Below are positions 25,391-64,000 of a DNA stretch of 64,000 nucleotides, one piece after another; positions within the stretch are counted from its first letter, which is position 1; every line of letters starts with the position of its first letter. This DNA comes from Paenibacillus sp. W2I17 (lineage in GTDB: Bacteria; Bacillota; Bacilli; Paenibacillales; Paenibacillaceae): contig NZ_JAUSXM010000001.1 of assembly GCF_030815985.1 (NCBI RefSeq), forward strand, positions 62,001-126,000, read 5' to 3'. The notes beneath the pieces are model-generated. The model had not been told where the DNA came from. It was given only the letters and a program-made list of their open reading frames with translations, and did not search any database. Position numbers and translations under genes: made by a program.

Positions 25391-25813
25391 ATGCACAGAG
25401 ACACCGTTTTTATGGTTTTGTTTGGCTGGCTGCTATCTGCAGTCGTGTATTTGGTAGGGGGAATTGATCACCTGTTTATTGCAGTGACCATCTTTGTGGG
25501 GCTGGATTACATTACAGGGGTGCTGTCTGCATGGTATAGGAAGGAGTTATCCAGCAGGGTTGGATGGTGGGGGCTTGCTCGTAAGTCATTGACATTTGTT
25601 TTTGTCATTATTGCACATCAACTGGATATGGTTGCAGGCAATTCCAATGATTTTATGCGAGATGCAATGTTAATGTTCATTATCGGTACGGAAGGAATCA
25701 GTATATTGGAGAACCTGGGGAAACTGGGCCTGCCTGTACCGAAGTTTATCACTTCAGCTCTCTTTAAGCTTCGAGGCAATGAAGATCAAGTTGAAGACGA
25801 GGGGAAGATGTAA
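25391..25813 (+). CDS. Phage holin (holin_4_1 family)
   Basis: 140 aa, ATG 25391 with AAGGGGG upstream. Three to four membrane segments (FMVLFGWLLSAVVYLVGG; LFIAVTIFVGLDYITGVLSA; LARKSLTFVFVIIAHQLDMVAG; MLMFIIGTEGISILENLGKLGLPVP) and the conserved GLDYITG and EGISILENLGKLGLPVP motifs match the phage_holin_4_1 (toxin-secretion/lysis holin) family. Holins make membrane holes that release endolysin. The stop overlaps the amidase start (TAATG), so the two form a lysis cassette. The charged C-terminal tail (NEDQVEDEGK) is usual. Confidence 0.9.
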   Translation: MHRDTVFMVLFGWLLSAVVYLVGGIDHLFIAVTIFVGLDYITGVLSAWYRKELSSRVGWWGLARKSLTFVFVIIAHQLDMVAGNSNDFMRDAMLMFIIGTEGISILENLGKLGLPVPKFITSALFKLRGNEDQVEDEGKM

Positions 25814-26580
25814 TGTTACAGATCATCAAGGATTACATACCTGTGAATAAATACAGCCGAGCCGGACTGAAATTAAAAGCAAAACGTGGGATTGTGATGC
25901 ATTATACGGCTTCTCCCGGGGCGCCCGCCAAGAACATTAGCAAGTACTTTGCAAGTCTGGCACAGCAAGATTCCAATAAAGCAGTGAAAGGTCGTTATGC
26001 AAGTGCACATTTCTCGGTAGATCGAAATTCGATATATAACAGTCTCCCGGATGATGAACTAGCCTATCACTGCGGGAGTGCAACATACACGAAGGAAGCT
26101 CTAGCCAAACTTGGGACATATCCGAACAATAGTACAGTGGGCATTGAGATGTGCATTGAAAAGGATGGCAGTATCCATGAAGATACATTCAATAACGTTG
26201 TAGACCTCGCGGTATACCTAATCAGGGAACGGGGCTTTCCACCCGTCTTCTTCACACATAAAGAAGTGGTTGGATGGAAGGAATGCCCACTGCCATGGAT
26301 TAAACAACCAGGTGAATATGAAAGATTTAAGCAAGCAGTACATATAAAATTAAACCCACTACAAGAAATAGCAGTCACGGAGGATGATGAGATGAATACG
26401 GTTCTGGATTATGCACAATGGGCCTGGAATGAACTTGATCAGTACATTGGAGATGCCTACAACGACAAGGTGATTGACGATTGGGCATGGGTAGAGAAGG
26501 TACGCAAGAAGAAGTTAACCTATGGAGAGTTGCTGTTACTGAAGGTTTTAATTGATGAGCGCAGACGTAAAAAGTCCTGA
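25813..26580 (+). CDS. N-acetylmuramoyl-L-alanine amidase (endolysin)
   Basis: 255 aa, ATG 25813 overlapping the holin stop. Amidase_2 (PGRP-like) domain in residues 10-175: the zinc ligands are in IVMHYTAS and in FTHKEVVGWKECPLPW (His and Cys), with SAHFSVDR and the TVGIEMCIEKDGS segment between. It cuts the amide between N-acetylmuramic acid and L-alanine. There is no signal peptide, so release depends on the holin. The C-terminal 60 residues (YAQWAWNELDQYIGDAYND, DDWAWVEKVRKKKLT) form a small helical module that may bind the cell wall. Confidence 0.93.
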   Translation: MLQIIKDYIPVNKYSRAGLKLKAKRGIVMHYTASPGAPAKNISKYFASLAQQDSNKAVKGRYASAHFSVDRNSIYNSLPDDELAYHCGSATYTKEALAKLGTYPNNSTVGIEMCIEKDGSIHEDTFNNVVDLAVYLIRERGFPPVFFTHKEVVGWKECPLPWIKQPGEYERFKQAVHIKLNPLQEIAVTEDDEMNTVLDYAQWAWNELDQYIGDAYNDKVIDDWAWVEKVRKKKLTYGELLLLKVLIDERRRKKS

Positions 26581-26604
26581 CCTAAAATACATCTCGGATA
26601 GGGG

Positions 26605-26793
26605 TTATGCCTGTCTGCTGGTTAACCAGGAGTTAAAGTGTGCTGGATCTTTCAAAAAATAAAAATGTTGTATAATCACGATATGGTCAGGATACTCAAG
26701 TTCATATTGGGTCTGAATCGAGGATTCATCGACGACTCCAATAACAGCGAGTTGATTTGTTTCGATCACATGTGTTGGTGTGGGTGAGCTCAT
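26605..26793 (-). CDS. Small hypothetical protein (62 aa)
   Basis: Minus strand, ATG 26793 with GAAAGGATG about seven bases upstream, which supports translation. The product has a Val/Ile-rich middle (NQLAVIGVVDESSIQTQYELEYPDHIVIIQHFYFLKD) suggesting a small beta fold. No family recognised, no membrane helix. It lies next to two other small minus-strand genes within the phage-like locus. Confidence 0.45.
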   Translation of the reverse strand: MSSPTPTHVIETNQLAVIGVVDESSIQTQYELEYPDHIVIIQHFYFLKDPAHFNSWLTSRQA

Positions 26794-26933
26794 ACAAACA
26801 TCCTTTCGTTTATTAAGTCAGAGTCAACAGGGGCGATGGAGATGTCCATGGTCCCTAGATGACCTATACGAGGCAGGATGGGGAAGGTTAAGCTGATCCG
26901 GTTCAAAACGGGTTCAAAATTCATAAATATAAA

Positions 26934-26973
26934 AAGCAGAACCCCACGTCGAATGTGATGTGGGGTTCTGCTT
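26934..26973 (-). terminator. Strong terminator of the minus-strand small genes
   Basis: A 14-bp perfect stem AAGCAGAACCCCAC (26934-26947) / GTGGGGTTCTGCTT (26960-26973). On the minus strand it is followed by a T-rich tract (TTTTTATATTT). Confidence 0.85.
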
Positions 26974-27382: not shown

Positions 27383-27652
27383 TTAAGCTTTTTCGTTTAC
27401 TTCGTGGAGAATGGAATCAATTAATTCATCATCAATCAGAGTGCTAGCTTTTTTGAGTGCCAACAGAATACCTTGCGGTTGTTCAAAAAAGACTGTAGAG
27501 AGAATAGGGGCAACCTCATCTAAATTAATCTTCTCAGCTTTGACCATACTGATCAAGGCAACAACGATCTCATGTCCCTCCACGTTACCTTCCATAAATC
27601 TTGTTCGTAAATGAGTTGCTACTATTTCGGTCTTTGACTGCGAGTACGCCAT
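27383..27652 (-). CDS. Small helical protein (89 aa)
   Basis: Minus strand, ATG 27652 after GGAGGGAAATGTA, which decides the start over an in-frame ATG at 27700. The product is helical and mixed-charge (SKTEIVATHLRTRFMEGNVEGHEIVVALISMVKAEKINLDEVAPILSTVF, then EQPQGILLALKKASTLIDDELIDSILHEV). I do not recognise the family. It lies between the lysis cassette and the glycosyltransferase genes of the phage-like locus. Confidence 0.55.
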   Translation of the reverse strand: MAYSQSKTEIVATHLRTRFMEGNVEGHEIVVALISMVKAEKINLDEVAPILSTVFFEQPQGILLALKKASTLIDDELIDSILHEVNEKA

Positions 27653-27816
27653 TACATTTCCCTCCAACGGTTCGAATATCTTAGCAGAGCTCCTCTTCAT
27701 GCAAGTTTAAACCAGGTTAGATTAGGAGTTATCTTAACAATAATAAGGCAGATAGTTTAATTTATCAACAGCCACTAAATCAATAAAATCGGATTATAAT
27801 CACAGTTTTATCCAGT

Positions 27817-27848
27817 AAAAAAGACCCGGAGAGGGTCATTTTTTAGGT
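27817..27848 (-). terminator. Terminator at the end of the GT-D gene
   Basis: GACCC (27826-27830) pairs with GGGTC (27834-27838) between an A-run and a T-run, so it can work on both strands; it overlaps the stop of the minus-strand GT-D gene. Confidence 0.5.
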
Positions 27849-28576
27849 CTGCCTTCCCAATAATCAGGAAATCCGTTGTAATCCCATGCGTTCAGATTTT
27901 CGCTGTCGGCTTGAATGGCAACATCTGCTCCGGAACCAAAGTCAACACCTACGGTTTGCAGTTCTTTGGCCTTAATAACCAGTACCTTGCCGGGTGCACC
28001 TGCACATATCAGAGCAAGCTTCCACGGTGTCTGTTGGTAGATATGTTCCATTTGTTTGGATGCTGTGCTCACATGAGACCACGAGGGGCAGTCCACCGTT
28101 CCCACGATGCTTGTCCACCCGTATCTCCGCTCCAGAACTTCTCGATATTGCTCGGCCTTGGCTCCGCAGATCAGAATAGGCATGGTCTTGAATGTTTCAT
28201 AGAATAACTTGAATCGGGCGATGTAATTATTCTCAAAAGCATAGAAGGTCTCCCTGGGTTCGACTTTGTAATATGCAAGGCACATATCGAATAACGGCTT
28301 GAAATACCAGTGATCCGTCTGGATCAGATGTCCGACGTAATCCGCTTTTCGCAGGCAGTGTACGATAATTTCTCTCGCACTTGCATTGGGTAAGGTTATC
28401 CCGCAATAGGTAGGATCGTTCAACCAGCCGTAATGAGACTTGATGAAATCCATAGTCAGAACGGTATCGTGGGCCAGAATGGTGTTGGAAGCATCCCCAA
28501 ATCGAACAGAAGCATGGGCTTCTCCATCAGAGGCCATTTGGAACCAGTTGTGGATTAATTCTACACTCCCCAGCAT
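27836..28576 (-). CDS. GT-D fold glycosyltransferase
   Basis: 246 aa, minus strand; ATG 28576 has AAGAAGG at good distance, whereas an upstream in-frame GTG (28585) is too near it. The sequence resembles the GT-D fold family: HNWFQMASDGEAHASVRFGDASNTILAHD, DHWYFKPLFDMCLAYY, LICGAKAEQYREVL and LALICAGAPGKVLVIKAKELQTVGVDFGSGADV. These proteins transfer sugars to glycoprotein or wall acceptors; the acceptor here is unknown. It is divergent from three further glycosyltransferase-type genes. Confidence 0.7.
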   Translation of the reverse strand: MLGSVELIHNWFQMASDGEAHASVRFGDASNTILAHDTVLTMDFIKSHYGWLNDPTYCGITLPNASAREIIVHCLRKADYVGHLIQTDHWYFKPLFDMCLAYYKVEPRETFYAFENNYIARFKLFYETFKTMPILICGAKAEQYREVLERRYGWTSIVGTVDCPSWSHVSTASKQMEHIYQQTPWKLALICAGAPGKVLVIKAKELQTVGVDFGSGADVAIQADSENLNAWDYNGFPDYWEGRPKK

Positions 28577-28766
28577 GCATGTCACCTTCTTTCCATGTGT
28601 GAATAATGGTTTCTTTGGTATACATATTCATCAACTCCTTCTGTACTAGAATAGGAAAAATGCTTCGTTCTCTCTCTTCTTTTGAGGAATCACTCCTTTT
28701 TTGTTCAACGTGCGAAGGTTATTGAGCAACAGTCTAGACTATGTAAAAAGGGAGAGGGGATGGACT

Positions 28767-29426
28767 GTGAAAAACGTATTTATAGGTAGTCCTGTACGAA
28801 ACCGGGCTTGGATTATGGAACGGCACTTGCAATCACTTGAGCAGCAAGCAGTGCAGAAGCATTATATGTATATCCTGAATGATAGTGAAGATCAGACGGA
28901 GCATATCCTTGATTGTCATCAGATTCCTTATCTAACTCATAATCTGGGGAGAACATATGGTCATATACGTGGACAATATTCCTATCACAACCTGGCGTTG
29001 TTGAGGAATATGCTTCTGGATGAGTTTCTGAAATCGGACTGTAATTATCTGTTCTCGATTGATACGGATATCCTCGTTCCTGAGCATAGCCTGCAGCAGT
29101 TAATGGATAATGACAAGGATATATGTTCCATGCTTATACGGAATCATCCAAAGTTGAAGGCTCATAATGCCATGATCGGCGGAAAACATATACCTGAATT
29201 CAAAGCGGGTTTGTTCCCGGTAGAACTGACAGGTGCCGTATATTTGATTAAGCGTGAAGTGATCGAAGCAGGCGTTCGATATGGTTCTCATCCAACAGGT
29301 GAAGATGCACTATTTTGTGAGCAAGCTAGAAGACTGGGGTTTGAACTGTTTGTAGATACTCGGTTGCGTCCCGTTCATGCCTATGCGGAAGGGGTGGAGT
29401 TGATTGCTCAATTGGCTGCTTCGTAG
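28767..29426 (+). CDS. GT-A type glycosyltransferase
   Basis: 219 aa, GTG 28767 with GGGAGAGGGG upstream; an in-frame ATG at 28701 adds an unrelated leader and lacks a ribosome site. It opens KNVFIGSPVRNRAWIMERHLQSLEQQ and has the metal-binding SIDTDILVPE motif (a D-x-D variant), then GAVYLIKREVIEAG and HPTGEDALFCEQA, the usual GT2-like core. It is cytoplasmic. It overlaps the next gene by 23 bases, forming an operon of three sugar-transferase genes directly upstream of the tail genes. Confidence 0.75.
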   Translation: MKNVFIGSPVRNRAWIMERHLQSLEQQAVQKHYMYILNDSEDQTEHILDCHQIPYLTHNLGRTYGHIRGQYSYHNLALLRNMLLDEFLKSDCNYLFSIDTDILVPEHSLQQLMDNDKDICSMLIRNHPKLKAHNAMIGGKHIPEFKAGLFPVELTGAVYLIKREVIEAGVRYGSHPTGEDALFCEQARRLGFELFVDTRLRPVHAYAEGVELIAQLAAS

Positions 29427-30495
29427 AAAACAACGAGAAAATCCGGTTTTTGAAAGTATAGAAATGACCATTGTCTACCCGCCCGCACTTGACTGGAACC
29501 TCTTGTTCCAACGTCCTCAGCAATTGATGACCGCCTTCTCCAATATTCCAGGTATACGGGCTATCTTTATCAATGAAGAAACGTACAGGAAGCAGAGCCG
29601 CCCGATTGAAAAGTTAAATGAGGATCTGTTCCTTGTGCAAAAAGGTGTGAACTACGATCACCTGGTCAAAGGAAAGAAAGTACTCTGGTTCTCGAATCCA
29701 GGTCAGTACAATTATTCGGATGGACGGAAGTTTGATTTTACCGTATTTGATTACCTTGATAATTCGGCTGATGAGTTTGCTGTGTGGAAATCCTACATCC
29801 CGAAATGTTTTGACCGTGCAGATCTTATTGCCACGACTGCCAAGGTGATGTACGAGGCACATAAACATGACGGCAAACCAATCTTTATGTGCCCTAACGG
29901 GGCAGATTACCAACATTTTGAGAAAGCGCGGGCAATTCTGCCCAAACCGGCGGACTTCCCCGATGTTCATGATGGGCAAAAGATTGTGGGTTTCCACGGG
30001 GCAATGGCATCGTGGGTGGATTATTCGCTGATTACCGCTATTGCAGATAAAGGTTATCGTGTCGTTTTGATTGGAAACAATGCCCTCTATCAAAAAAATA
30101 TTGTGCATCCCAATGTGACTTGTCTTCCACACAAAGATTATAAAGTACTTCCCGCCTACATTGCTCAATTCGATGTCTGTATCGTGCCATTCAAGCTGAC
30201 AGAGATGATCCGGGGCTGCGATCCGATCAAATATTATGAATATTTGTCTGCGGGCAAACCTGTGTTGACAACGCGTATGGAGGAAATTGTTCATAAGTAC
30301 AGCGATGTAACTTACTTTATGAATCAGCATAATTGCGGGGTGATGTTGGAGAAAGCGATTCGTGAGAATAGTGCTTCCAAAATTGCGGCAAGAGTAAGGG
30401 TGGCTAAGTCTAATAGCTGGGATGGCAGGGCAATGGATGCCGTGAAGATGATTAATCAGGTCATAGGAGGTATGAGAAATGAAAAAGATATTTAA
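29404..30495 (+). CDS. GT-B glycosyltransferase (group 1 type)
   Basis: 363 aa from TTG 29404 with GGGGTGGAG just upstream, inside the preceding gene. It is a two-Rossmann GT-B protein: N-terminal TIVYPPALDWNLLFQRPQQLMTAFSNI, CPNGADYQHF in the hinge, and the C-terminal nucleotide-sugar site FDVCIVPFKLTEMIRGCDPIKYYEYLSAGKPVLTT, which contains the E-x7-E-like region of GT4 enzymes. Donor and acceptor are unknown. Overlaps the next gene by 17 bases. Confidence 0.8.
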   Translation: MLNWLLRRKQRENPVFESIEMTIVYPPALDWNLLFQRPQQLMTAFSNIPGIRAIFINEETYRKQSRPIEKLNEDLFLVQKGVNYDHLVKGKKVLWFSNPGQYNYSDGRKFDFTVFDYLDNSADEFAVWKSYIPKCFDRADLIATTAKVMYEAHKHDGKPIFMCPNGADYQHFEKARAILPKPADFPDVHDGQKIVGFHGAMASWVDYSLITAIADKGYRVVLIGNNALYQKNIVHPNVTCLPHKDYKVLPAYIAQFDVCIVPFKLTEMIRGCDPIKYYEYLSAGKPVLTTRMEEIVHKYSDVTYFMNQHNCGVMLEKAIRENSASKIAARVRVAKSNSWDGRAMDAVKMINQVIGGMRNEKDI

Positions 30496-31117
30496 ACGAA
30501 TGTTTGGTAGCCAATCGACTACACCGACAATTGAGCTTGAAGAAATAGAGATTGACGCGACGGAGTTCAATGTTACGACATACACCCCAAACACGGATAC
30601 TACGATTGTATATCTGCCTGCGATCGATTTCCATAGTGAACGATTCGGGCGTCGACCACAACGGCTGTTAAAAGCACTCGCGGAAGTAGGCTACAATGTA
30701 ATATATATCAACTCCAGTGATGAGTTCTATCAGGTAGATGCCTTGGAGTATCCATATCCGGAGATTCCAAACTTTGTTGTAGCCCGTGTGGGCCATAATG
30801 TCCGTACGCTGTTTCAAGGTGATCGCGTAATCTATTGGGTGAACGATAGCCGGCTGGCAAGTTCGGTCGAGACAGCCTATCCTGATCTAGTCGTATTTGA
30901 TTCGTTGACCGATCCGGATCAGTACGAGAAGCACAAACACAAGATGGAAGCTGTTGCTGACGTTGTCTTTATTACACCTGAGAGAATCTATGAGCATGGC
31001 AAATACTGCTCACATGTTCATCTGGTTACTGCCGATGAATTTGAGATCAAGGAACGTGCAGAACAGGTAGCGCAAATTATAGATGCTTTGCCAAACAGAA
31101 CGGCCCCTCTGATGTAG
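30479..31117 (+). CDS. GT-B-like protein, N-terminal half only
   Basis: 212 aa, ATG 30479 overlapping the preceding gene. After a variable, acidic N-terminus (IELEEIEIDATEF), residues 43-212 resemble the N-terminal Rossmann half of the previous protein (TIVYLPAIDFHSERFGRRPQRLLKALAEVGYNVIYINSSDEF against the TIVYPPALDWNLLFQRPQQL motif). There is no C-terminal sugar-nucleotide domain. It may be a partner subunit or a non-catalytic duplicate. A CCCCT/AGGGG hairpin with T tract follows at 31103-31127, ending the operon. Confidence 0.6.
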   Translation: MKKIFKRMFGSQSTTPTIELEEIEIDATEFNVTTYTPNTDTTIVYLPAIDFHSERFGRRPQRLLKALAEVGYNVIYINSSDEFYQVDALEYPYPEIPNFVVARVGHNVRTLFQGDRVIYWVNDSRLASSVETAYPDLVVFDSLTDPDQYEKHKHKMEAVADVVFITPERIYEHGKYCSHVHLVTADEFEIKERAEQVAQIIDALPNRTAPLM

Positions 31118-31130
31118 GGGTCTTTTCTTT
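31103..31130 (+). terminator. Terminator after the glycosyltransferase operon
   Basis: CCCCT (31104-31108) pairs with AGGGG (31116-31120), followed by TCTTTTCTTT. The 240 bases after it, up to the tube gene, show no gene. Confidence 0.55.
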
Positions 31131-31370
31131 GATCATATGCAGGACTATTCCTTTTCCAAAGATGACAGGGCTAATCGTGCTTCAATATATTTCGTTTGCA
31201 TTATCGTTAGGGAATGAAGATAGCGTTCTACACTATAAAAAGCAGAGACGGCGAACAGCCAGACGGGTTAAACGAAGGATCTCCCGATCATCAAGTCATT
31301 TAACCTGATCCCGGCTTAAGCAAGTCTCGGTAGCTAAAATTACATACTATCCTAAGGAGTGGACTGTTCA

Positions 31371-32192
31371 ATGGCTAAAAAAATGATTATCAAAGGTGTA
31401 GGTACGTTCATGGCTAAACGCCTTCCAAAAGATCCGATGGGCGAAATTGAGGTAGTTACCCTGGGTACCCTGCAAGATCTGAAAATTGACCTTAACGTGG
31501 AGCTTGAGGATATCTTTGGTGGTGACGGTCTGTTCGCCATTGATGTACTGGTGAAGTCCAAATCGATTGAAGTGTCGGCAACAGATGCCAAATTCGATCT
31601 GGATGCGATCCAGCTGATGATGGGTTCAACGGTACAAGAGCAAGTGAAGTCTTATGTATGGGTGCTGAATGAGCAGTCTACAGTGGCTGCAGGCGTATCC
31701 AATTCTGGCTTTGCTGAAGCCAAGCCAAAATATGCAAATAAAATCTATGGAAGCAACGGTGGCATCACGGTTCGTCTCAAAGATTCCAACACATTGCTGA
31801 AACAACTCACTTTAAAAGGAACGGCCGTGGAACCGAATGCGTTCTTCTACGACGAAGCAAATGGTGTAGTTATCCTGAATGCGGTCCATATCGATAAGGA
31901 GATTGTGCTGAACTACAAACGTGAAGAAACTGTAGACATGGTTGACCTGTTGGTTGACGAAGTACCATTCCCGATCTCTGTCGTTCATCACGGGACGTTC
32001 CAGCAAAAAGATGGTTCGTATGCAGGTGTTGAAACCGAGTTGTACATGTGCCGTGCAAAAGGAACATTCAGCATCAATGCCCAGCGTGCTGCCGCTTCTG
32101 CATCTGCAATCTCCTTGCAGATTCTTGATCCTGAACGTGCTGACGGAAAAATCGGCAGTATCAAACGCTTCAGCGCACCAAGCAAGATCTAA
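31371..32192 (+). CDS. Probable tail tube (major tail) protein
   Basis: 273 aa, ATG 31371 with AAGGAG (spacer 11); a GTG at 31359 lies in that site. The product is beta-rich and soluble, without signal peptide: MAKKMIIKGVGTFM, EIEVVTLGTLQDLKIDLNVELEDIFGGDGLF, then SKSIEVSATDAKFDLDAIQLMMG. This layout is common in phage tube proteins (a plan of N-terminal strand, GG loop, then strands), and it sits directly before the chaperone pair and tape measure. It is alone upstream of a strong hairpin terminator, as expected for a protein needed in many copies. Family membership cannot be proved by eye. Confidence 0.6.
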   Translation: MAKKMIIKGVGTFMAKRLPKDPMGEIEVVTLGTLQDLKIDLNVELEDIFGGDGLFAIDVLVKSKSIEVSATDAKFDLDAIQLMMGSTVQEQVKSYVWVLNEQSTVAAGVSNSGFAEAKPKYANKIYGSNGGITVRLKDSNTLLKQLTLKGTAVEPNAFFYDEANGVVILNAVHIDKEIVLNYKREETVDMVDLLVDEVPFPISVVHHGTFQQKDGSYAGVETELYMCRAKGTFSINAQRAAASASAISLQILDPERADGKIGSIKRFSAPSKI

Positions 32193-32320: not shown

Positions 32321-32800
32321 ATGGAAACAGAACAAGAAAAAGCCGAGCGTGAACTTGCGGAAAAGCTGAATGAGGAAGCGGCGAAACGAATCAAAGATGA
32401 TCCGGAAAACAAACGGGTGACTCCGGAGGAAGTGGAAGCTGCTGAGCGTGCATTCTTTGAAGATGATGAGATTATTACGCTGCGGGATCGACGGAAATAT
32501 CGTATTCCGCCATGTAACCTGAAGGATGCCCGCCGTCTGATGAAGTTGCTGAAAACGGTGAATATCGATGCCATTATTCTTAACTTCATTCCGACTGAGA
32601 ATGATGAACTGGATGAAAAGCGGCAACAGGATTTATTTGATGTATTGGCAATGGCATTCAAAAACTATCCACATATCGTGACCAAAGATGAGCATGGTGA
32701 GTATATCATCAATCGAGAGTATCTGGATGAGTACCTTGATCTGAACACAGCTCGCAAAGTCATTGATATGCTCATTGGACTCAATGGTTTAAAAAAGTAG
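32321..32800 (+). CDS. Tail assembly chaperone, upstream frame (gpG-like)
   Basis: 159 aa, ATG 32321 with GAGGAGGT ten bases upstream; an in-frame start at 32210 lies in the preceding terminator. Charged helical N-terminus (EQEKAERELAEKLNEEAAKRIKDDPENKRVTPEEVEAAE), then a compact domain (RRKYRIPPCNLKDARRLMKLLKTVNIDAIILNFIP; TARKVIDMLIGLNGLKK). Position between tube and tape measure marks it as a tail assembly chaperone. The last codons GGT TTA AAA AAG TAG contain two overlapping slippery heptamers (TTTAAAA 32788-32794 and AAAAAAG 32791-32797), so some ribosomes should shift -1 into the next frame. Confidence 0.7.
   Translation: METEQEKAERELAEKLNEEAAKRIKDDPENKRVTPEEVEAAERAFFEDDEIITLRDRRKYRIPPCNLKDARRLMKLLKTVNIDAIILNFIPTENDELDEKRQQDLFDVLAMAFKNYPHIVTKDEHGEYIINREYLDEYLDLNTARKVIDMLIGLNGLKK
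32788..32797 (+). promoter_or_regulatory. Programmed -1 frameshift slippery site
   Basis: A_AAA_AAG (the dnaX-type heptamer) overlaps T_TTA_AAA immediately before the stop TAG of the first chaperone frame. After a -1 slip, reading continues VERTEGESLEG into the frame that ends at 33153 with no stop codon. This is the gpG/gpGT arrangement of tailed phages. Confidence 0.7.
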
Positions 32801-32820
32801 AACGCACCGAGGGGGAGTCT

Positions 32821-33153
32821 TTGGAGGGAACCGAAATCCGTGATACGGAAACACAGGAACCCGTTCACTGGGGAGAAATCTTCTTCACCCTCCATAAACA
32901 CTGTGGGCTGAACAAGTGGGAGATTTGGGAGTACACACTCCCTCAGGTTGCGGAGCTGTGCAAGTCAGCCGAGAAATATATTCAATTTGAGGTTGAACTT
33001 ATGACAGCACCTCTTCGCATGTTCGGTGGCGGTGGGGGCGAGGAAGTTGAAGAAGATGGGACTGTCAGACGTAAAAGAACCTTCAATGACGAGGATTACA
33101 CGGAGATATCAGAAGATGATATCGGTATGCTTGCACAAGCGCTCGGAGGATAA
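32821..33153 (+). CDS. Tail assembly chaperone, downstream frame (gpT-like)
   Basis: 110 aa if started at TTG 32821 (CGAGGGGGAG upstream); more likely made as a -1 fusion to the preceding frame, ending at 33153 (about 277 aa in total). Sequence: EPVHWGEIFFTLHKHCGLNKWEIWEYTLPQVAELCKSAEKYIQFEVE, an alpha-helical region typical of the second chaperone frame, then a glycine patch and acidic tail. In lambda the gpGT product bridges the tape measure and tube subunits. The tape measure gene begins 67 bases later. Confidence 0.65.
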   Translation: MEGTEIRDTETQEPVHWGEIFFTLHKHCGLNKWEIWEYTLPQVAELCKSAEKYIQFEVELMTAPLRMFGGGGGEEVEEDGTVRRKRTFNDEDYTEISEDDIGMLAQALGG

Positions 33154-33220
33154 GAGAGAGACATCCCGTTTTGCCTAAATGAAGGTAGAACGGGATTTAT
33201 GCATAAAGGCGGTGATTCTT

Positions 33221-37725: not shown

Positions 37726-37765
37726 GGTGACCTACTCTCTTTTCTGTCTATTCTAAAGATAGGAG

Positions 37766-42334: not shown

Positions 42335-42750
42335 TGGCCGGCATTGTGAATGAAAATATTGTATTTCCCGTGCTGGATCTAATCCACCGGGAGCTTCGCA
42401 AATATAGCAGTATCTCCAATTCGAATGTTTCTCCTCTTGAAGGTGAACCTTCCGTTACATTATATCGGGAGCATATGCAGGACCTGGACCGGGTGACTGG
42501 AGCAGATCTCTTGTATGAATCGGCATGGAAGGTTTCGATCTGGATGAAGTTTGGCTCAGAGGATGAGGAAGACTTTCCTTCCGGGGTGGGCTACTCCCAC
42601 CCGGATTATGATTATTACAAGTATTTTAGGCTAACGCAGGTGACGGCCCGTACATATGATCCGAGTGGAGAGTCGATGTTCACATACAATATTGGTCTAA
42701 ATTATGATGACGAAGGGCGCTTAACTGGAACGAGCGTAAGTCGTATATAA
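42334..42750 (+). CDS. Hypothetical tail/baseplate protein (138 aa)
   Basis: ATG 42334 overlaps the hub stop (TAATG), with AAAGGGAG ten bases upstream; the in-frame start at 42307 is upstream of that site. Soluble, mixed alpha/beta, starting AGIVNENIVFPVLDLIHRELRKYSSISNSNVSPLEGEP and ending in a strand-rich region (YYKYFRLTQVTARTYDPSGESMFTYNIGLNYDD). Translational coupling to the hub suggests a small partner, such as a baseplate wedge or terminator-like protein. Family not recognised. Confidence 0.6.
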   Translation: MAGIVNENIVFPVLDLIHRELRKYSSISNSNVSPLEGEPSVTLYREHMQDLDRVTGADLLYESAWKVSIWMKFGSEDEEDFPSGVGYSHPDYDYYKYFRLTQVTARTYDPSGESMFTYNIGLNYDDEGRLTGTSVSRI

Positions 42751-51897: not shown

Positions 51898-51941
51898 CTC
51901 AGTGTTCTTTTTTTCGTATAGAGCGAGTACGAGGTGATTTT

Positions 51942-56627: not shown

Positions 56628-56643
56628 AGAAAGGAGGATCTGG

Positions 56644-57789
56644 ATGGGAATTGTGAGACGTCAGGAAAAAGGGCTAATCTATTTTGATGAATTCAATAAA
56701 TCCGAACTTGACTCAGGGTGGGAAGTATTGACTGACGATCATGGAAGGTACAATGCTGATCATGGGGTACTTGAACTAAGACATGGAGAGTCTCCAATAT
56801 ATATGTTTTTCACGGAGTTAACGGAAATTGAAGAGTTCGTGTTTGATGTCAAGAATGAGTATAATCCAACTGTTGAGGGAGACTCCGGGGGACTTATTGT
56901 ATATGCAGACGATGAGAATGTGGTGAAACTGGAAGAGTATTTTGATGCGGAAAAAGGGATGGCTAGAAGTTATCCTTGGATCCGTCTGGTACGAAGTTTT
57001 AATGTATATTCCGCATACTGGTCAGAGGACGGGAAGATATGGCGGTTTATTGGTAATCAGGAAGTCATCTCTTCTGTACCTAAGATCGGGCTTTTCTTAG
57101 AATCAGGAACACAAGGTGAACCACTACTTATTAATCATATTCGAATTCAAAGAAGTGCCAGAGTGAAGGTAGATAATCTGAAACAAGGTTATCAGGTTGA
57201 ACTCCGGGATCAGGCAGGAAAAACTCTTGAAAAGAAAATATGTAAATATGAGAATACCTCCATCATGTTTGACTTTCAACGATATGGTTATCCGTTTACA
57301 GGCAGCTTTGCTGTGACTTTGCCTGACGGCAATAGATTTGAGTCTTCAGACATATTAAGTATATACGGTGGCGATACATATTACTTTGAACCTAGAGTGG
57401 ATCTTTACTATCGTGAGTATAGCGACAATGGAGAATTCCTTGACATGCGGTTACAAGACAACCAGGAACGTTTCCTCGGTTATATGTCCTCTGGTCAATC
57501 CGTAACGGAGAATGTATTGTTTATTGCCAAAAATTCATTGAACCAAGGTGTTTTTCAAAATGTTAACTTCGAGCTTGCCTCTTATCGGGGAGATCAGTAC
57601 CAAAACGTAGTTCGGTTAGCGCCCGATGTTGAGGGAGAACCAGGAGCTTGGAGTATGCAAGTGAACGCAACCGAGATAACTCCAGAAAGCCCTTATCAAT
57701 TCTGGGTGAGAGTAGAGAGGCTGGATACCAGCACCAATTATGAAGCCCAGGTCACGTTCGGGATCAAAGTTTCTTCAACGTATATATAA
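56644..57789 (+). CDS. Concanavalin-like tail fibre protein (381 aa)
   Basis: ATG 56644 after AAGGAGGATC. The N-terminal 190 residues resemble a DUF1349/GH43-C2 concanavalin-type lectin fold: YFDEFNKSELDSGWEVLTDDHGRYNADHGVLEL, DSGGLIVYADDENVVKLEEY and FNVYSAYWSEDGKIWRFIGNQE, where the SEDGKxW pattern is typical. The rest is beta-rich (GYQVELRDQAGKTLEKK; SPYQFWVRVERLDTSTNYEAQVTFGIKVS), similar to Ig-like fibre modules. It probably binds sugars on the target surface. No catalytic acid pair was found. Confidence 0.6.
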   Translation: MGIVRRQEKGLIYFDEFNKSELDSGWEVLTDDHGRYNADHGVLELRHGESPIYMFFTELTEIEEFVFDVKNEYNPTVEGDSGGLIVYADDENVVKLEEYFDAEKGMARSYPWIRLVRSFNVYSAYWSEDGKIWRFIGNQEVISSVPKIGLFLESGTQGEPLLINHIRIQRSARVKVDNLKQGYQVELRDQAGKTLEKKICKYENTSIMFDFQRYGYPFTGSFAVTLPDGNRFESSDILSIYGGDTYYFEPRVDLYYREYSDNGEFLDMRLQDNQERFLGYMSSGQSVTENVLFIAKNSLNQGVFQNVNFELASYRGDQYQNVVRLAPDVEGEPGAWSMQVNATEITPESPYQFWVRVERLDTSTNYEAQVTFGIKVSSTYI

Positions 57790-57851
57790 CTCTAAACTTT
57801 AAGTGCTCGACCACGTATAGATTCAGTAAGGGTTGAGTTGGAGGTGAGAAT

Positions 57852-59625
57852 ATGTCTGTCCGCTTTAGCGGGACAAGTTCAGGAACGAACAATGGCGAGT
57901 TGCTTGACCACAATAGTTTGTTAAACAAAGGGACTCGATCCCACCAAGAAATTGATGAGCATCTTTCAGAGATGGAGGAAGCCAGAAGCGTATATGTCAG
58001 CCTCCCTGAGCGTTTGGATCAGATGGAACTTGTAGGCAAACAGAATGAAACAGGGATAACCGGTCATGAATTGCGTATTGCTGAGCTGGAACCTCGGGTA
58101 TTGAATCAGGGAATATTGTTGGAAGACCAGAAGTCCAAGTTGGGTGAAGTTGAGAAAATCGTAGCGGATCTCAGCACGGATGTTCATGAACAAAATGAAC
58201 GGTTGGAGAGTTTGGAAAATGAATTAGGAGATAGTCGGGGGAATCGTGAATCACTTGCAGATGTTATATCTGATATAGAGGATTCCATTGATGAACTAAA
58301 AACAATCCCTTTGTCTGATTTAGCAATAAGAGCCGCAGCTATGGATTCTAATGGTCTGCTTAAGGTTCAGATCAACGGTGGCAATGCAAGCATTAACAGT
58401 ACACTCGTTCAAAAAGAGGAGTCTTTCTATTCATTTACAGCTGAGCAAGATACCAGATATTATATATTTCTAAAAAATGATGGAACCTTTGTACATCAGT
58501 TGGTTTCCGATGAACCCGATAACGGCATGATTCTGGGATCTGTCACAACAGGTGCCACCTCTGATGCGGTATATCTTAAAGATCAACGCTATTATCTGAC
58601 CAAAACGGTGTCTACAGGTGATTTTCAAGATCTCCAGGAAAGAATCACAGATGCTCAATCTCAAATCAATGAATTGGACGAAGAAGTGGTCAGGTGGATT
58701 GATCATACCGAAGATTTGTCCAAACAAGTTGAAGGTTTTGGTGAAATTAAGGCTGAAGTGTCAAAAGCTAGAGTAGACAAAGATGGCTTTGAATTTGATA
58801 AGCTGCCGGATCGTTTAAACCACATGCAATCCAAGCTTGAGCTTGCTGCATCCAGGGGGACGATGGAAAATCAATCGATTTTTCGAATTGAGTACCCACC
58901 TGATATAAGGCTCTCAGAACAAAAGAGCTTTTATTGTCCAAAGTATAGCATTGGTTCTGATAGTGTAGAAGTACTTCTGGATGGCGTTAGGGTAACTCCT
59001 TGGGGAAGATTATATCGAATATACGGATACGGAAATCCGTTTTCTCTATGATATTCCGGTGGATTCACGTGTGACACTGCTTAGCCGAGGATCGATCATC
59101 AATACGTCTTCAACTTCAGAGTATGAGTATGACTCCAAAGGCAGAATGAAGCGTGAGATTATTACTGGAGGTATTAACCGCGTTATTGATTATGAGTACG
59201 ATCTTGAGGGGAATCTTATAGCGGAACTCATTACGGAGAGTGATGGGCAAGTTAAGACGATAACCTATGAACGGGAAGAAGGAAGAATTAGACGCAAGTT
59301 GAACAAAGGGGCAATGTACTTTTACTTACAGGGTAGTTCAGCCTATGATGACCGCCCTATTAAGCAACGTGTGTCTGTGCTTGAAGATATGGAAGAACAG
59401 GACGTTTATTTTGAGTATGATCATCAAAGCGGCCTGATTATCAAAGAGATTACATATAACAACGATATAAAACCATTAGTTATAAAGATTATTGAATACA
59501 ATTATAACTCTGATGGTAGTGTGGATACCGAGATGGTCGACTTTAATGGTTCGAAAATAGTGAAAAAATATAAGTACGATTCGGATGGAAATATCCTTGG
59601 CGTCCAAAAAAGAAAGGTAGGCTGA
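57852..59625 (+). pseudogene. Coiled-coil fibre with YD-repeat end, frameshifted
   Basis: ATG 57852 after TTGGAGGTGAG. The first frame (399 aa) has a short N-terminal HNSLLNKGTRSHQEIDEHL segment and a long coiled coil (residues 40-150). It stops at 59051 after TPWGRLYRIYGY. The next frame reads DYIEYTDTEIRFLYDIPVDSRVTLLSRG and then YD-type units (YEYDSKGRMKREI, YEYDLEGNLIAEL, YKYDSDGNILG) to 59625. Removing one G from the G4 run at 59002-59005 joins them as TPWEDYIEYTD, a natural fibre-tip sequence, giving about 590 aa. Annotators may list two genes, the second starting at GTG 59059. Confidence 0.7.
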
Positions 59626-59629
59626 TAGA

Positions 59630-59977
59630 GTGGAATCACACTTCTCAATGACCAAAATTAAAACAGGATTTCGTCCTTTGTTCGACAAAATGGTAGGTAC
59701 GAACCTTACGCCAATTACAGAGGAAGAGGTGGAACTCCTGATGTTTATGTTGCGGAGCGATATTATCTTCGATGGGACAGGGCAGCAGTACCTTCCGGTG
59801 CTTGAAGCTTTGGAACAGGTGGTTCCTCTTGAGTTAACGGACGAAATTAACCAGGAGCTAGTAGATCAGGATACACAACGTCAAGAGCAAGATAGACACA
59901 TGCAGATCCGCACCGTGTTTCTCACAGCAATGAAAGAGTCGATGCTTCAGGAATTGAAAGTTCGATATGGTATTTAA
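59630..59977 (+). CDS. Small helical protein between fibre genes (115 aa)
   Basis: GTG 59630, with AAAGGTAGG about 10 bases upstream. Fully helical and acidic, e.g. GTNLTPITEEEVELLMFMLRSDIIFDGTGQQYLPVLEALEQVVPLE, DQDTQRQEQDRHMQIRTVFLTAMKESMLQELKVRYGI. Size, acidity and position after a fibre gene suit a fibre assembly chaperone (inference). Family not recognised. It starts five bases after the preceding frame's stop. Confidence 0.55.
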   Translation: MESHFSMTKIKTGFRPLFDKMVGTNLTPITEEEVELLMFMLRSDIIFDGTGQQYLPVLEALEQVVPLELTDEINQELVDQDTQRQEQDRHMQIRTVFLTAMKESMLQELKVRYGI

Positions 59978-59989
59978 GGAGGTGAGCGC

Positions 59990-61033
59990 ATGACAGCAAC
60001 AGTGGTACAGGGGTTTAGACGGTACGAGTTCACGAGCACCGTGACCAATTTTTTGAGTACATTGGCAAAGGAGATGAATACTTATCCATATGAAGATGTC
60101 AACTGGAAAGTGACTTATTATCCTAAAGATCCGTATTCTCAGCCGAAGGCCTACAATTCACAGAATCAGCCATATTCTAATCCTCTGGGTGCGGTGACAC
60201 TTGAGAATATAAATGATGCTTCGCTATTTTTCACTTTGAGTCTAAACCTTTCTGTTTCGTATGGATGGACTACTTTTGGTTACCAATTAAGGTGTGGTTT
60301 AAACCGTCCTACTGTTGGAGAGGAGCCTTACCCAGATGTTTCACTTGCTATTGGAGAAGAAAGTAATATCCCCTTCCATACTTCGTCTAATAATGTAACT
60401 TTGAATATCACATATAAATGGACCGTGTTCCCCTTGAAAGAAGCTATATTTATTTTTGGAGAAGCTATTACAAATATAGGAAACGCTTATCCGTTTAGGT
60501 TATATATGGGAAATGTTACATCTTATGAAAAAGAAGACCCAGCTATAAAGAATGATTTTGTTGGTATATTCTCTCATGCACCTATTGGAAATGATACTAA
60601 CTGGGCAAATAATAATTTATACAGTGTTGGTAGAGGGGTAGTCAGAACTTCCCGTAATAACAAAAAGTACGAATTATATAACTTTTGTACTAGTGCCCAA
60701 GCTACATCTCCTGGTTCAGGAAATCGCTATTTTGTTTCCCCTTGGTATGTGTTTCAACCTAAGGAAGGAGTACGAGGTGAATTTCAACAAATGAGGTCTG
60801 CAGTATTTAAAGATGCTAACCAACATCCAGACGGATCCATGATTGATCTGGATGGTAAAAGGTACCATGTATTTCACGTTACCGATCAACAACAACCGAC
60901 AAGTTACAAATATTGGGTCGACATCTCAGGTCAGACTAGATATATTCAACCCTACTTCTTTGACAGCAACACGCTCTTGGGAGATGGACAGAGAGCAATT
61001 TTATTCGAATTACCAACGGAGGGGTCTAAGTAA
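59990..61033 (+). CDS. Adhesin-like protein, paralogue C
   Basis: 347 aa, ATG 59990 after AAGGAGGTGAGC. Shares with the next gene the blocks YKWTVFPLKEAIFIFGEA / YKWTLFTTKDGIFIHGEY, DPAIKNDFVGIFSH / DPAIANDFVGIFTH, and VFQPKEGVRGEFQQMRSAVFKDANQHPDGSMIDL. The last also echoes the EGYRG segment of the 43-46 kb pair. N-terminal NFLSTLAKEMNTYPYEDVNWKVTYY resembles the opening of paralogues A and B. Soluble, beta-rich. The stop overlaps the next start by one base (TAATG). Confidence 0.6.
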   Translation: MTATVVQGFRRYEFTSTVTNFLSTLAKEMNTYPYEDVNWKVTYYPKDPYSQPKAYNSQNQPYSNPLGAVTLENINDASLFFTLSLNLSVSYGWTTFGYQLRCGLNRPTVGEEPYPDVSLAIGEESNIPFHTSSNNVTLNITYKWTVFPLKEAIFIFGEAITNIGNAYPFRLYMGNVTSYEKEDPAIKNDFVGIFSHAPIGNDTNWANNNLYSVGRGVVRTSRNNKKYELYNFCTSAQATSPGSGNRYFVSPWYVFQPKEGVRGEFQQMRSAVFKDANQHPDGSMIDLDGKRYHVFHVTDQQQPTSYKYWVDISGQTRYIQPYFFDSNTLLGDGQRAILFELPTEGSK

Positions 61034-61974
61034 TGGCAGTACCTAAACGATATTCATGGGTGAGTACGATATCCGAGTTTTCAAACACCGCTGAGTTACA
61101 GATGGCAGGGGACTCATGGTGGGAAGTGAAAAAATATGCTGCTGGAGCAGTTAGCGGTGGTGGTAATTGGGGAAATGTAGTTTTTACGAATTTGATTGAT
61201 CGAAGCCTTGAATTGACGATGGCGATCCAAACCAATAATGGTGCTACGATTCGATGGGGTATCAACAGCAATTTATCACCAAGAGCGGATATTCATTTGG
61301 ATTCTCAGGATAAGCAGATGACGGATACCCCATTTTCTTGTGATACGGGTAACTACAACATAACCTACAAATGGACTTTATTCACTACAAAAGATGGGAT
61401 TTTTATCCATGGAGAGTATCAAAGTAACATTAATTATGCCTACCCAGTTCGTATCTATATGGGTAGACTTGCTCCACTAGAGCCTGAAGATCCAGCAATT
61501 GCAAATGATTTTGTTGGGATATTCACACACATGCCTTCCAATGTGAGTAATAACAGTGCAGCTACATATGGTGACAATAATGTTGGTAGAGGGATTGTGC
61601 GAAAATCCCGAAATGGAACTAAGTACGAATATTATAATTTTACTACTGACGCTCAACTTACTTCTCCAGGTGTAGGGGGGAGATACTATGTTAATCCCTT
61701 TATGGTATTCAATCCAGCAGAAGGAGTTAGGGGACAATTTCCAGATGTATATGCTGCTTGCCTGAAGGATGCTTCTCAGCACCCGGATGGTTCAATTCTA
61801 GATTTGGGAGAAAACAAATATTACGTATTTCATGTCGTGGATCAACAGATGCCGTATAACACGAATTATACTCGATGGTACACCTCATTAGGGGGGATAC
61901 GCTACTGCGTTCCTTGCTTCTTCGGTAGCAACAACGTCATGGGTGGGCAACGAGTCATTCTATTTAAGATATAA
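61033..61974 (+). CDS. Adhesin-like protein, paralogue D
   Basis: 313 aa, ATG 61033 overlapping the preceding stop. Closest relative of paralogue C in this window (YPVRIYMGRLAPLEPEDPAIANDFVGIF; VGRGIVRKSRNGTKYEYYNFTTDAQLTSPG; VFNPAEGVRGQFPDVYAACLKDASQHPDGSILDLG). The first 60 residues differ, which suggests that the N-terminus is a variable or attachment part. Beta-rich, no signal peptide. Likely tail surface component contacting the host. Confidence 0.6.
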   Translation: MAVPKRYSWVSTISEFSNTAELQMAGDSWWEVKKYAAGAVSGGGNWGNVVFTNLIDRSLELTMAIQTNNGATIRWGINSNLSPRADIHLDSQDKQMTDTPFSCDTGNYNITYKWTLFTTKDGIFIHGEYQSNINYAYPVRIYMGRLAPLEPEDPAIANDFVGIFTHMPSNVSNNSAATYGDNNVGRGIVRKSRNGTKYEYYNFTTDAQLTSPGVGGRYYVNPFMVFNPAEGVRGQFPDVYAACLKDASQHPDGSILDLGENKYYVFHVVDQQMPYNTNYTRWYTSLGGIRYCVPCFFGSNNVMGGQRVILFKI

Positions 61975-61989
61975 GGAGGTTTTCTATAC

Positions 61990-62781
61990 ATGTCATTCTT
62001 CAGTGGTAAAGTCAAAATGAATCTGTTATTTCAAGCATTAATTAATGGCTTCAAGGGAATTGCATCCTCGCCTTGGTCGATCTATTTTGAAACATCGGGT
62101 ATCCTCGTCATTAAATCAGTGGGCTCAACAGGAAAAGATAAGTTATTTATTAAGTTTGAGAAAGGAAATACCAAGGAATTAAACGGCAACTACATCACGG
62201 TAACTTCAGCAGAAGATATATTACTTGCTGACGGGAGTATTCCGGAAGGAAAAATGTTTACTACACGGAATTTCTACTGCCATACATCTGTTGTTGATTC
62301 CAACCTCTTAACAGACTACCAGGTATCAGTTACAGCAGATCGTGTAATTATGTGGTTGGCGGGGGATGTGAACTCGGTAACAGGGATATCCAATTTGGGG
62401 TATTTCGGTCTTATGTATCGCTATTCCCAAGAAAATCACTCGGGTGCTCAAGGGATCGGAGTAAGCTACCAGGGATTCAATGGTATTCGTACAGTTAAGG
62501 ATCTGGATAACATTCAGACCAATAATGTGTACAAATCTTATTCAGCAATGGTTCCGACCAACCCGGGTTGGGGCGCACTCTATCATCTCTCACCGTGTAT
62601 TATGGCTAATAATGCAGAAGGCCCACGAGGCGAACTACATGATATTTACTTTGCACCAGCAGCAGGTGTAAGCCACGGGGATGAAATTACAGTAGCAAAT
62701 AAGACTTACAAAGTATATTCATTGACAACAGGAGGTTCAAGCCTCCTACCGGGAAACACCGTAGCCGTATTGATGCAGTAG
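61990..62781 (+). CDS. Adhesin-like protein, paralogue E (distant)
   Basis: 263 aa, ATG 61990 after AAGGAGGTTTTC. N-terminal FSGKVKMNLLFQALINGFKGIASSPW matches the position of the short helical start in other paralogues. HLSPCIMANNAEGPRGELHDIYFAPAAGVSHGDEI corresponds to the SP...EGxRG...HPDG block of C and D. The final GNTVAVLMQ parallels QRAILFEL. It is shorter because the central strands are reduced. Same soluble beta-rich type. Confidence 0.55.
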   Translation: MSFFSGKVKMNLLFQALINGFKGIASSPWSIYFETSGILVIKSVGSTGKDKLFIKFEKGNTKELNGNYITVTSAEDILLADGSIPEGKMFTTRNFYCHTSVVDSNLLTDYQVSVTADRVIMWLAGDVNSVTGISNLGYFGLMYRYSQENHSGAQGIGVSYQGFNGIRTVKDLDNIQTNNVYKSYSAMVPTNPGWGALYHLSPCIMANNAEGPRGELHDIYFAPAAGVSHGDEITVANKTYKVYSLTTGGSSLLPGNTVAVLMQ

Positions 62782-62793
62782 AGGAGGAAGAGT

Positions 62794-63531
62794 ATGGCTG
62801 TAGCAGGGACAGAAAGTACAATCTATACACCTCATCGGGCAGGCAGGCAACATGATTCAGGAGTACTTTACACATACACTCAGGGTCAATATCGTTCCAT
62901 GGCAACGCAAAGATTGTCCCTGTATACGAGCAAAACCTTAGGTATGGCAGGTCAGATTAAGGGAGTAGGAGTACAGTATACCTTTCAGGTTGGAGAACTT
63001 CAGCATCCTGTCCCAAACAACCCATCCGAACATCACATTTATTCCATCTGGGGGTACGACCAAGCAGACCTTCCGCAATTCTACAACGGACGTCTTATGC
63101 TTACCGACACGCATGGAATAATCGTAAGCCTTAGCAAAGAATTAAGTATTTATGGTACTACGGGTTATCTACCAACACACAACACACCAGGAACCAGATT
63201 TGCAGGTAGACTAGGAAGAGCAGGTGATCGAGGCTCTTTAACTAGGTTAACGAATGGTCGCTGGGTACATATCACCAATTTCGTTTTTCCATCCGAGGAT
63301 TCATTTAGGGGAGTTATTCGTTCCTATGTAGTAGGTAGAAGAAGACTAGCCTCATCAGAGCGCACACCACTTCATTATATTGTAAGTCATCTACATCATA
63401 GCGAAATGGAAAATCTCAAGGGGCATCTTTCTGGTCAAGGAGGCAATATAGATCCAACTGTACCAACCACGATATTGCCACGAAGGTACCCTGCTACCTA
63501 TATTCCAGTTCGGAGGAGGCCAGGGCAATGA
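62794..63531 (+). CDS. Hypothetical tail/fibre protein (245 aa)
   Basis: ATG 62794 after GAGGAGGAAGAG. Beta-rich, basic. It opens AVAGTESTIYTPHRAGRQHDSGVLYTYTQGQYRSMATQ, and later has GDRGSLTRLTNGRWVHITNFVFPSEDSFRGVIRSYVVGRR. The SEDSFRGVIRSYVV stretch may be a degenerate form of the EGxRG block, but I would not call it a paralogue on that alone. Overlaps the next gene by four bases (ATGA), so the two are translationally coupled. Confidence 0.55.
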   Translation: MAVAGTESTIYTPHRAGRQHDSGVLYTYTQGQYRSMATQRLSLYTSKTLGMAGQIKGVGVQYTFQVGELQHPVPNNPSEHHIYSIWGYDQADLPQFYNGRLMLTDTHGIIVSLSKELSIYGTTGYLPTHNTPGTRFAGRLGRAGDRGSLTRLTNGRWVHITNFVFPSEDSFRGVIRSYVVGRRRLASSERTPLHYIVSHLHHSEMENLKGHLSGQGGNIDPTVPTTILPRRYPATYIPVRRRPGQ

Positions 63532-63929
63532 ACAAAACATGGCGAATTATGCAGGAGCTGAAAGATGTGTATAAACAGGTAGAATTGTCTCATGTAGTTA
63601 AAGCACTAAACGGTGGGGGGGAAACATTAATCGTTTCGCTCCCCATGGAAAGCCCGCGTTTTCTGATTAAGACGGTACGTGTTATCCCAACCGTAGAAAC
63701 GAATGTGGAGCTTCATATACTTGATAGTGCAGACAAAATGAAAGCCCAAATTTTATACTTTAATACAGCAGAATTCAGTACAGGAAACTTCATAGACGGG
63801 ATATACGACAATGTGGATTTACCTTATGACGATAAGGATGGTACATCCCATTTCCATTTTGAAATCATTAACCCAGGTTCCGTGGCTTCAGGTTTTACCA
63901 TTGAAGTAACGGGTTTGACGGTCAGATAG
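63528..63929 (+). CDS. Small beta-domain tail protein (133 aa)
   Basis: ATG 63528 overlapping the previous stop. A single beta-rich domain (VKALNGGGETLIVSLPMESPRFLIKTVRVIPTVETNVELHILD; TSHFHFEIINPGSVASGFTIEVTGLTVR) of the jelly-roll type, preceded by a short helical start (NKTWRIMQELKDVYKQVELSHV). It probably caps or decorates the neighbouring fibre proteins. Family not recognised. Confidence 0.55.
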   Translation: MNKTWRIMQELKDVYKQVELSHVVKALNGGGETLIVSLPMESPRFLIKTVRVIPTVETNVELHILDSADKMKAQILYFNTAEFSTGNFIDGIYDNVDLPYDDKDGTSHFHFEIINPGSVASGFTIEVTGLTVR

Positions 63930-63941
63930 GAGACAACGATC

Positions 63942-64000
63942 ATGGATATCATTACTTATGGTAAAGTGGTCAAGCTTTCAAACGAGATCAAGGAAGCCAG
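63942..64000 (+). CDS. Start of another fibre-type gene (partial)
   Basis: ATG 63942 after AGGAGACAACGATC opens a frame (MDIITYGKVVKLSNEIKEA) that runs off the window end. The opening resembles the helical starts of phage fibre proteins. The tail-like locus therefore continues past the right edge. Confidence 0.5.
   Translation, partial: MDIITYGKVVKLSNEIKEA

Follow-up and report, generated by a model that had tools for sequence, protein, structure and literature searches.

In the chromosome of Paenibacillus sp. W2I17 (genome G000), we characterised a 44.8-kb tail-only element lying between the sporulation gene gerW on its left and the genes dacB, spmA and spmB on its right, which is probably a domesticated headless tail locus of siphophage origin. 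The window analysed is a stretch of 64,000 nucleotides (G000:C1:62001-126000) from a 7.0-Mb chromosome assembled as one contig. All positions are in window numbering, continued past the right edge (L002:1 = window 64001); the element spans 25,282 to ~70,098 and runs 6.1 kb beyond the window, its right-hand host genes being identified in sequence read past the window end. On the left, gerW (ytfJ; 24713..25225, + strand; PF09579, E 1.5e-27), which is matched in 75/75 same-genus genomes, is followed by its terminator hairpin (25242..25281, +), a direct repeat with 70061-70098 and the left edge of the element. Comparison of this gerW-dacB/spmA junction across related genomes, the check proposed by an earlier reading of the window by sequence only (the sequence-only reading), revealed the same locus at the same place in 16 of 75 same-genus genomes. 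The gap between gerW and spmA is 45.9-46.8 kb in these 16 and 2.45 kb or less in 55 others (G032, described below, included); it is intermediate in G069 (3.2 kb), G016 (9.3 kb) and G058 (9.6 kb), and in G066 the genes lie on separate contigs. The full analysis covers 15 of the 16 carrier loci (type I); G054, whose frames are broken at many points, was set aside. The flanking repeat pair is alignable in 15/15 loci, over merely 18 bases in G006 and 23 in G037, and a single hairpin copy is present in the empty-site genomes G070 and G051.

The element carries a siphophage tail set of tube, frameshifted chaperones, tape measure, hub and fibres. The sequence-only reading had listed these genes in phage order behind a holin and an amidase, and matches to Pfam, to PHROGs and to Brevibacillus phage Jenst (NC_028805, 126 kb) confirmed the whole series. 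The major tail tube protein (31359..32192, +) was assigned from a profile match and is 79% identical to that of a head-bearing prophage in Paenibacillus sp. FSL H7-0326 (G032); its structure model was of low confidence and was used solely alongside the profile match. The tail assembly chaperones gpG and gpGT (32321..33153, +) are linked by a -1 frameshift at A_AAA_AAG (32791-32797); T_TTA_AAA was rejected as the slippery site, being present in 9/15 type I loci versus 36/36 for AAAAAAG. Downstream lie the tape measure gene (33179..37051, +; 1,290 amino acids) and two baseplate protein genes (37075..39178, +), the first (37075) encoding an SLH domain (PF00395, E 9e-6) in a homologue of Jenst gp155 and the second (37766) a homologue of gp154. 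Inspected by eye, the ends of the latter protein (p37766, 37766-39175) resemble two SLH-domain halves around a large insert; Pfam returned no match for it. The tail hub (39194..42334, +), a homologue of Jenst gp153, carries an M23 endopeptidase domain (PF01551, E 4.9e-23) and is followed by four tail or baseplate genes (42307, 42769, 43185 and 45088; 42307..46233, +), of which 42769 matches PHROG 5955, 43185 and 45088 match PHROG 11431 and others, and 42307 matches no PHROG. A block-exchanged fibre cassette of ~21 kb (43218..64000, +; right end of the block ~64,344) includes giant fibre 1 (46312..51897, +; 1,861 amino acids, type A), giant fibre 2 (51942..56627, +; 1,561 amino acids), a fibre with a ConA-like (GH43_C2/DUF1349-like) region matched below cut-off (56644..57789, +) and eight smaller fibre or tail-tip genes (57852..63929, +), one with an RHS/YD repeat.

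Upstream of the tube are the lysis genes, holin (25391..25813, +; PF05105, E 3.2e-36) and N-acetylmuramoyl-L-alanine amidase, the endolysin (25813..26580, +; PF01510, E 9.7e-17), which are 76% and 75% identical to those of the G032 prophage and are retained in 15/15 loci. Next come, on the other strand, a small conserved gene (27383..27700, -) found in 15/15 loci (80-100%) and, at 66%, in both the G032 prophage and G142, and a GT-D-like glycosyltransferase gene (27836..28585, -; PF22882, E 2.2e-51; 80% in the G032 prophage) with a ratio of nonsynonymous to synonymous substitution rates (dN/dS) of 0.053. Of three further genes (28701..31117, +), one encodes a glycosyltransferase that is Anp1-like at a score below cut-off, another a GT4 glycosyltransferase that passes the cut-off for PF13692 and is TuaH-like below it, and the third a protein without a family match. 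That the glycosyltransferases are host genes was rejected, as the G032 prophage carries counterparts in the same order; those of the last three genes are 73-84% identical and lie there just upstream of thymidine kinase and terminase genes. This group ends 0.24 kb (31118..31358) before the tube; at that place the G032 prophage accommodates its head and packaging genes in a stretch of 11.5 kb. Beyond the window are a sigma gene, sigECF (66632; phrog_1740), a lytic transglycosylase gene in the right part of the element (68450) and a second sigma gene (69209; phrog_351). An MpsC-like gene (65617-66030, L002:1617-2030; PF10057) is common to the tail-only loci and the head-bearing prophage.

The absence of capsid and packaging genes, already noted for the part of the element inside the window, held when the search was extended to the right end, which revealed no gene for a terminase, portal, capsid, connector or integrase. 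The terminase, portal, capsid and connector proteins of Jenst and G032 and the integrase of G032 had no match in 15/15 loci. As positive controls, these searches detected terminase, portal and capsid in G032, and a capsid in 5/5 records already known to be head-bearing. The terminase, portal and major capsid protein of a complete Jenst-like siphophage are thus missing, and the element does not qualify as a gene transfer agent either. The whole G000 genome contains no Jenst-type terminase (E 1e-5), no G032-type portal (E 1e-10) and no member of the TerL_ATPase family. Another phage-like region of this chromosome (G000:C1 ~3.908-3.910 Mb) has a portal gene (PF04860) and a sub-threshold Terminase_3 match. 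The order of the tail genes matches that of the siphophage Jenst, and no tail sheath family, as expected of a contractile R-type tailocin or PBSX, was returned by the Pfam and PHROGs scans made, in which many proteins were family-less and the latter of which left aside giant fibre 1 and several small genes.

Two head-bearing relatives and phage Jenst serve for comparison. Firstly, the G032 prophage (IMGVR_UViG_2693429827_000003) is collinear with the element from holin to sigECF, apart from blocks that the element lacks; identity is 71% for the hub and 77% for sigECF. The distance from the amidase to the GT-D gene is 28 kb in G032 versus 1.3 kb in G000, and that from the third gene of the glycosyltransferase group to the tube is 11.5 kb versus 0.24 kb. 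Within this 11.5-kb block lie the genes for thymidine kinase, for a terminase that is 54% identical to that of Jenst, for the portal (phrog_3753, E 3e-95) and for the major head protein (phrog_1005, E 4e-88); the integrase sits between the counterparts of p64029 and p64893. Unlike the element, the prophage thus has a head, an integrase, many more genes and a tape measure of 3,050 amino acids, and it lies inside gerW and not after the terminator. It is a relative of the parent phage and not the parent, because in 14/15 type I loci (all but G006) the gerW frame before the element spans at least 85% of the protein. Secondly, the 113-kb record IMGVR_UViG_2518285548_000002 (L149) is head-bearing and has a tube identical to a Brevibacillus laterosporus protein. 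Thirdly, Jenst shares the tail-module order from the tube to the structural proteins (tube 36% identical over 98%, hub 32% over 58%); it differs from the element in having terminase, portal, head and tRNA genes and a tape measure of 1,738 amino acids.

Some observations concern the insertion site itself. The G032 prophage (C18 ~338.2-457.9 kb) splits gerW, with residues 8-46 at its left end and 40-146 beside dacB; excision of SPbeta from spsM during sporulation is reported to restore that gene (PMC4191935). In G006, gerW is split as well (C2:230114-390924), residues 1-50 sitting 161 kb from residues 38-170, and the tail-only locus adjoins the latter part. On average, the two flanking hairpins of one genome resemble each other more than hairpins of different genomes do: 0/20,000 permutations reached the observed mean over 14 loci, G037 being omitted since the search pattern missed its right copy. 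A hairpin's own partner was the best or tied match in 7/14 loci, kinship not being removed. This likeness is suggestive of gene conversion or recombination between 25242-25281 and 70061-70098.

We then consider how the locus has been maintained. Over the 15 loci, the median dN/dS of 38 element genes lies between 0.02 and 0.30 and is below 0.22 in all but one, indicating purifying selection; pairs with dS ≤0.05 or ≥1.5 were dropped, as were frames covering <85% of the query. Type I medians are 0.078 for the tube, 0.089 for the hub, 0.049 for the SLH protein, 0.176 for the tape measure, 0.063 for GT4 and 0.036 for sigECF; the highest, 0.30, belongs to p62794 (five loci). Among all comparisons, single pairs reach 0.55. 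Frames are intact for the tape measure in 13/15 loci and for the hub in 14/15.

The fibre cassette exists in two types, A (G000, G030, G037, G040 and G050) and B (the other ten loci), with protein identities of 47-51% between types and 79-98% within a type; the type B cassette resembles that of the G032 phage (73-80%). In the sister genomes G040 and G041, DNA identity is 98-99% to the left and right of a differing 21-kb block and falls to patches of 73-84% inside it. In the core tree, G030/G006 and G040/G041 (support 1.0) and G000/G029 (0.88) are sisters, and every pair holds types A and B, implying at least three cassette exchanges. Fibre exchange by recombination, with a tape measure gene that also varies, is described for Pectobacterium in PMC13195805.

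Across the wider family, the tube gene was detected in 38/394 genomes, belonging to 5/19 genera (E 1e-20). Taking headless to mean no terminase, portal or capsid match, 11 Jenst-like (type II) loci of the genus and the loci of G142, G270, G247, G170, G343, G220 and G260 are headless in the 20 kb upstream of the tube, the sole head-gene traces being 4% fragments of a terminase and of a portal in G016. Connector-side genes persist in some: gp164 beside the tube in G017, G058, G001, G016, G247, G170, G220 and G260, gp163 and gp162 in G247, gp161 in G260 and full gp160 in five; in G013 and G058, host genes were seen by eye a few kb upstream of the tube. No capsid match was obtained for ten IMG/VR records (L150-L159; 36-43 kb), which may be fragments; the tubes of L151-L159 are 97-99.6% identical to Brevibacillus proteins, and that of L150 is 99% identical to a Paenibacillus protein. 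Other genera of the family, and probably Brevibacillus, have relatives that lack terminase, portal and capsid, most of them with a short tape measure. The deletions do not all end at the same point, as a 26% remnant of the gene preceding the tube survives in G142 and none does in type I loci; this suggests that heads were lost several separate times.

According to PMC3271669, the length of the tape-measure gene is proportional to that of the tail. In the 13 type I loci with an unbroken frame, the protein has 1,273-1,339 residues. Residues 3-74, 100-297 and 313-1287 of the G000 protein align with 1-73, 1690-1945 and 2075-3047 of the G032 one, so that, compared with the prophage version, G000 lacks ~1,600 residues from the N-terminal half. 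Head-bearing members have tape measures of 3,050 (G032), 2,737 (L149), 2,637 (L168, L169), 2,471 (L160), 2,050 (L161), 1,834 (L165) and 1,738 (Jenst) residues, with two frames of 363 and 2,432 in L164. Headless loci have ~1,290 (type I), 1,404 and 424 in two frames (G142), 938 (G270) and 1,031-1,136 (Brevibacillus-type, L151-L159); type II loci have 1,731-1,757 (G058, G001, G016), 1,481 (G017) or 247-286 (G013, G008, G062, G060, G061, G063, G059), and other genera 1,716-1,732 (G220, G247, G260), 1,495 (G170) and 1,133 (G343). In G013 (C1 ~4.10-4.13 Mb) and six similar loci, the three tape measures compared match mainly the C-terminal 110-140 residues of that of Jenst. Both G182 and L150 have 1,431 residues; their stretches start <1 kb from the tube, so headless status is not callable there by position. 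Between seven head-bearing and nine headless groups, lengths differ with a one-sided Mann-Whitney p of 0.0003, uncorrected for kinship, on groupings of our own making and rounded group values; L150/G182 were counted as headless, and L164 (two frames) and the cut-off L162, L163, L166 and L170 were left out. Shortening is frequent and not universal, because six headless Jenst-like loci retain a phage-length tape measure.

The element holds candidate regulatory sites. The palindrome GAACN4GTTC, which we liken to a LexA box, occurs once in the window and its extension, at 66,378, before sigECF, and recurs at the matching place in 15/15 loci, in the remnants of G016, G058 and G066 and in G069; in the G032 prophage, a copy stands 1.2 kb upstream of sigECF. 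For the longer form CGAACN4GTTCG, one was found in the extension versus 0.02 expected by chance. The motif TTAAC-N15-18-CGTAT, presumably resembling ECF-type promoters, has five coding-strand sites versus 0.1 expected under a first-order Markov control, and one on the other strand. The five precede p42769, giant fibre 2 (48 bp upstream, at 51894), p64893, p67335 and p67800; four are conserved in 15/15 loci and the fifth in 13/15, and ten such motifs lie in a 131-kb stretch of G032. Together, the LexA-like box, the phage sigma gene and the repeated motif suggest SOS-induced expression.

Judged from its genes and their conservation, the element is probably a headless tail locus that descends from a ~115-kb siphophage and has been domesticated; an F-type (non-contractile) tailocin is the most likely device. 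The sequence-only reading had proposed a non-contractile, tailocin-like device, and this is supported: conservation at one site in 16/75 genomes, purifying selection, constant size and fibre swapping argue for a kept device over a dying prophage. The product would most likely be a tail particle, short and flexible, by which competing bacteria are killed. In such a system, DNA damage would free the LexA-controlled promoter at 66,377 and sigECF (66,632) would be made; sigECF, or perhaps the second sigma factor (69,209), would then read the TTAAC-N-CGTAT promoters. The tube, the chaperones, the shortened tape measure, the hub with its M23 domain, the baseplate proteins with SLH and the large fibres would assemble into a headless tail, and holin and amidase would lyse the producer. 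Related bacteria might be bound at their cell-wall polymers by the fibres and SLH parts, their wall opened by the M23 domain and their membrane breached by the tube. Particle glycosylation and a change of the producer's wall are candidate roles for the glycosyltransferases.

Several points weigh against a tailocin. The tape-measure frame is broken in 2/15 loci (G005 and G037) and many frames are broken in G054; in G005 the hub, p37766 and the host gene spmB are broken too, and since the breaks reach a host gene, sequencing errors are indicated there. G016, G058 and G066 retain a partial locus from which nearly all tail genes are lost, and G069 shows sigma-gene traces only, indicating that the locus is dispensable. 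A prophage gene beside the tube (phrog_32412), whose position we take to be that of the tail terminator, has no match in type I loci, which leaves the closure of the tube end unexplained. The motif scan revealed no TTAAC-N-CGTAT site before the holin or the tube, and glycosyltransferases are, to our knowledge, atypical for a tailocin. Lastly, portal genes unrelated to this phage family lie 3.8 Mb away in G000 and in the carriers G002 and G052 (38%), so borrowed heads are formally conceivable.

The retained glycosyltransferases and the unrelated portal gene in G000, with the SLH domain in a baseplate protein, speak for a tail device with another job: a surface-bound adhesin, a phage decoy, or a tail borrowing heads or DNA from other elements. 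We hold this to be unlikely; the SLH protein is common to Jenst and the head-bearing prophage and so looks like an ordinary phage adsorption part, and the retained holin and amidase argue for release by lysis. Less likely still is a defective prophage decaying without present function, for which the broken frames in three carriers and the remnants at the same site in four further genomes could be cited: the tape-measure and hub frames are unbroken in most loci, 38 genes are under purifying selection, size stays within 1 kb across 16 genomes and the regulatory sites are conserved. A complete prophage with head genes further right, which the sequence-only reading had kept in mind since the window ends inside the element, can practically be discarded, as the element stops at ~70,098 before dacB-spmA-spmB and the genome holds neither a Jenst-type terminase nor a G032-type portal.

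Beyond this locus, the ~115-kb siphophage family may have turned several separate times, in Paenibacillaceae and in Brevibacillus, into headless SOS-controlled tail weapons whose tape measure was repeatedly shortened after head loss, from 3,050 residues to ~1,290 (type I), ~1,090 (Brevibacillus) and 247-286 (one Paenibacillus group, with a predicted tail stub); we give this wider reading an even chance. Among the matches listed in the literature searched, mostly without subscription journals, we found no report of repeated tape-measure shortening after head loss. On the wider reading, tail length appears to be selected downwards once there is no genome to carry. The 247-to-3,050-residue range within one family offers a natural series on how long a killing tail needs to be. 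Because one genus offers empty sites, fragments, headless loci and a prophage of the same family with its head, comparison can retrace the path from phage to putative weapon: the head, integration and other genes lost, the tail shortened and fibres exchanged. Killing by the particles, if it occurs, would shape how soil and plant-associated Paenibacillus compete.

Among known systems, PBSX-like tail bacteriocins of Brevibacillus laterosporus and Bacillus are likewise tail-derived and found in Gram-positive spore formers; PMC9406221 describes mitomycin-induced particles and names the sheath XkdK and the capsid XkdG, unlike our element, which matches no sheath or capsid family. Phages have probably given rise to tailocins on many occasions (PMC12090994), and F-type tailocins are seldom described, rhizoviticin being a rare case beside F-pyocin and monocin (PMC10811719). 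No F-type tailocin of Paenibacillus was reported among the literature matches listed, again mostly without subscription journals. For rhizoviticin, antagonism is reported; for the Paenibacillus element it is predicted. F-type pyocins, monocin (Listeria) and rhizoviticin (Allorhizobium) resemble the element in being chromosomal headless non-contractile tail loci. The parent phage of the element differs from theirs (Jenst/SPR-like tube, ~115 kb), and the element has, in addition, two sigma factors, glycosyltransferases, a 21-kb fibre cassette and head-bearing prophage kin with which it can be compared.

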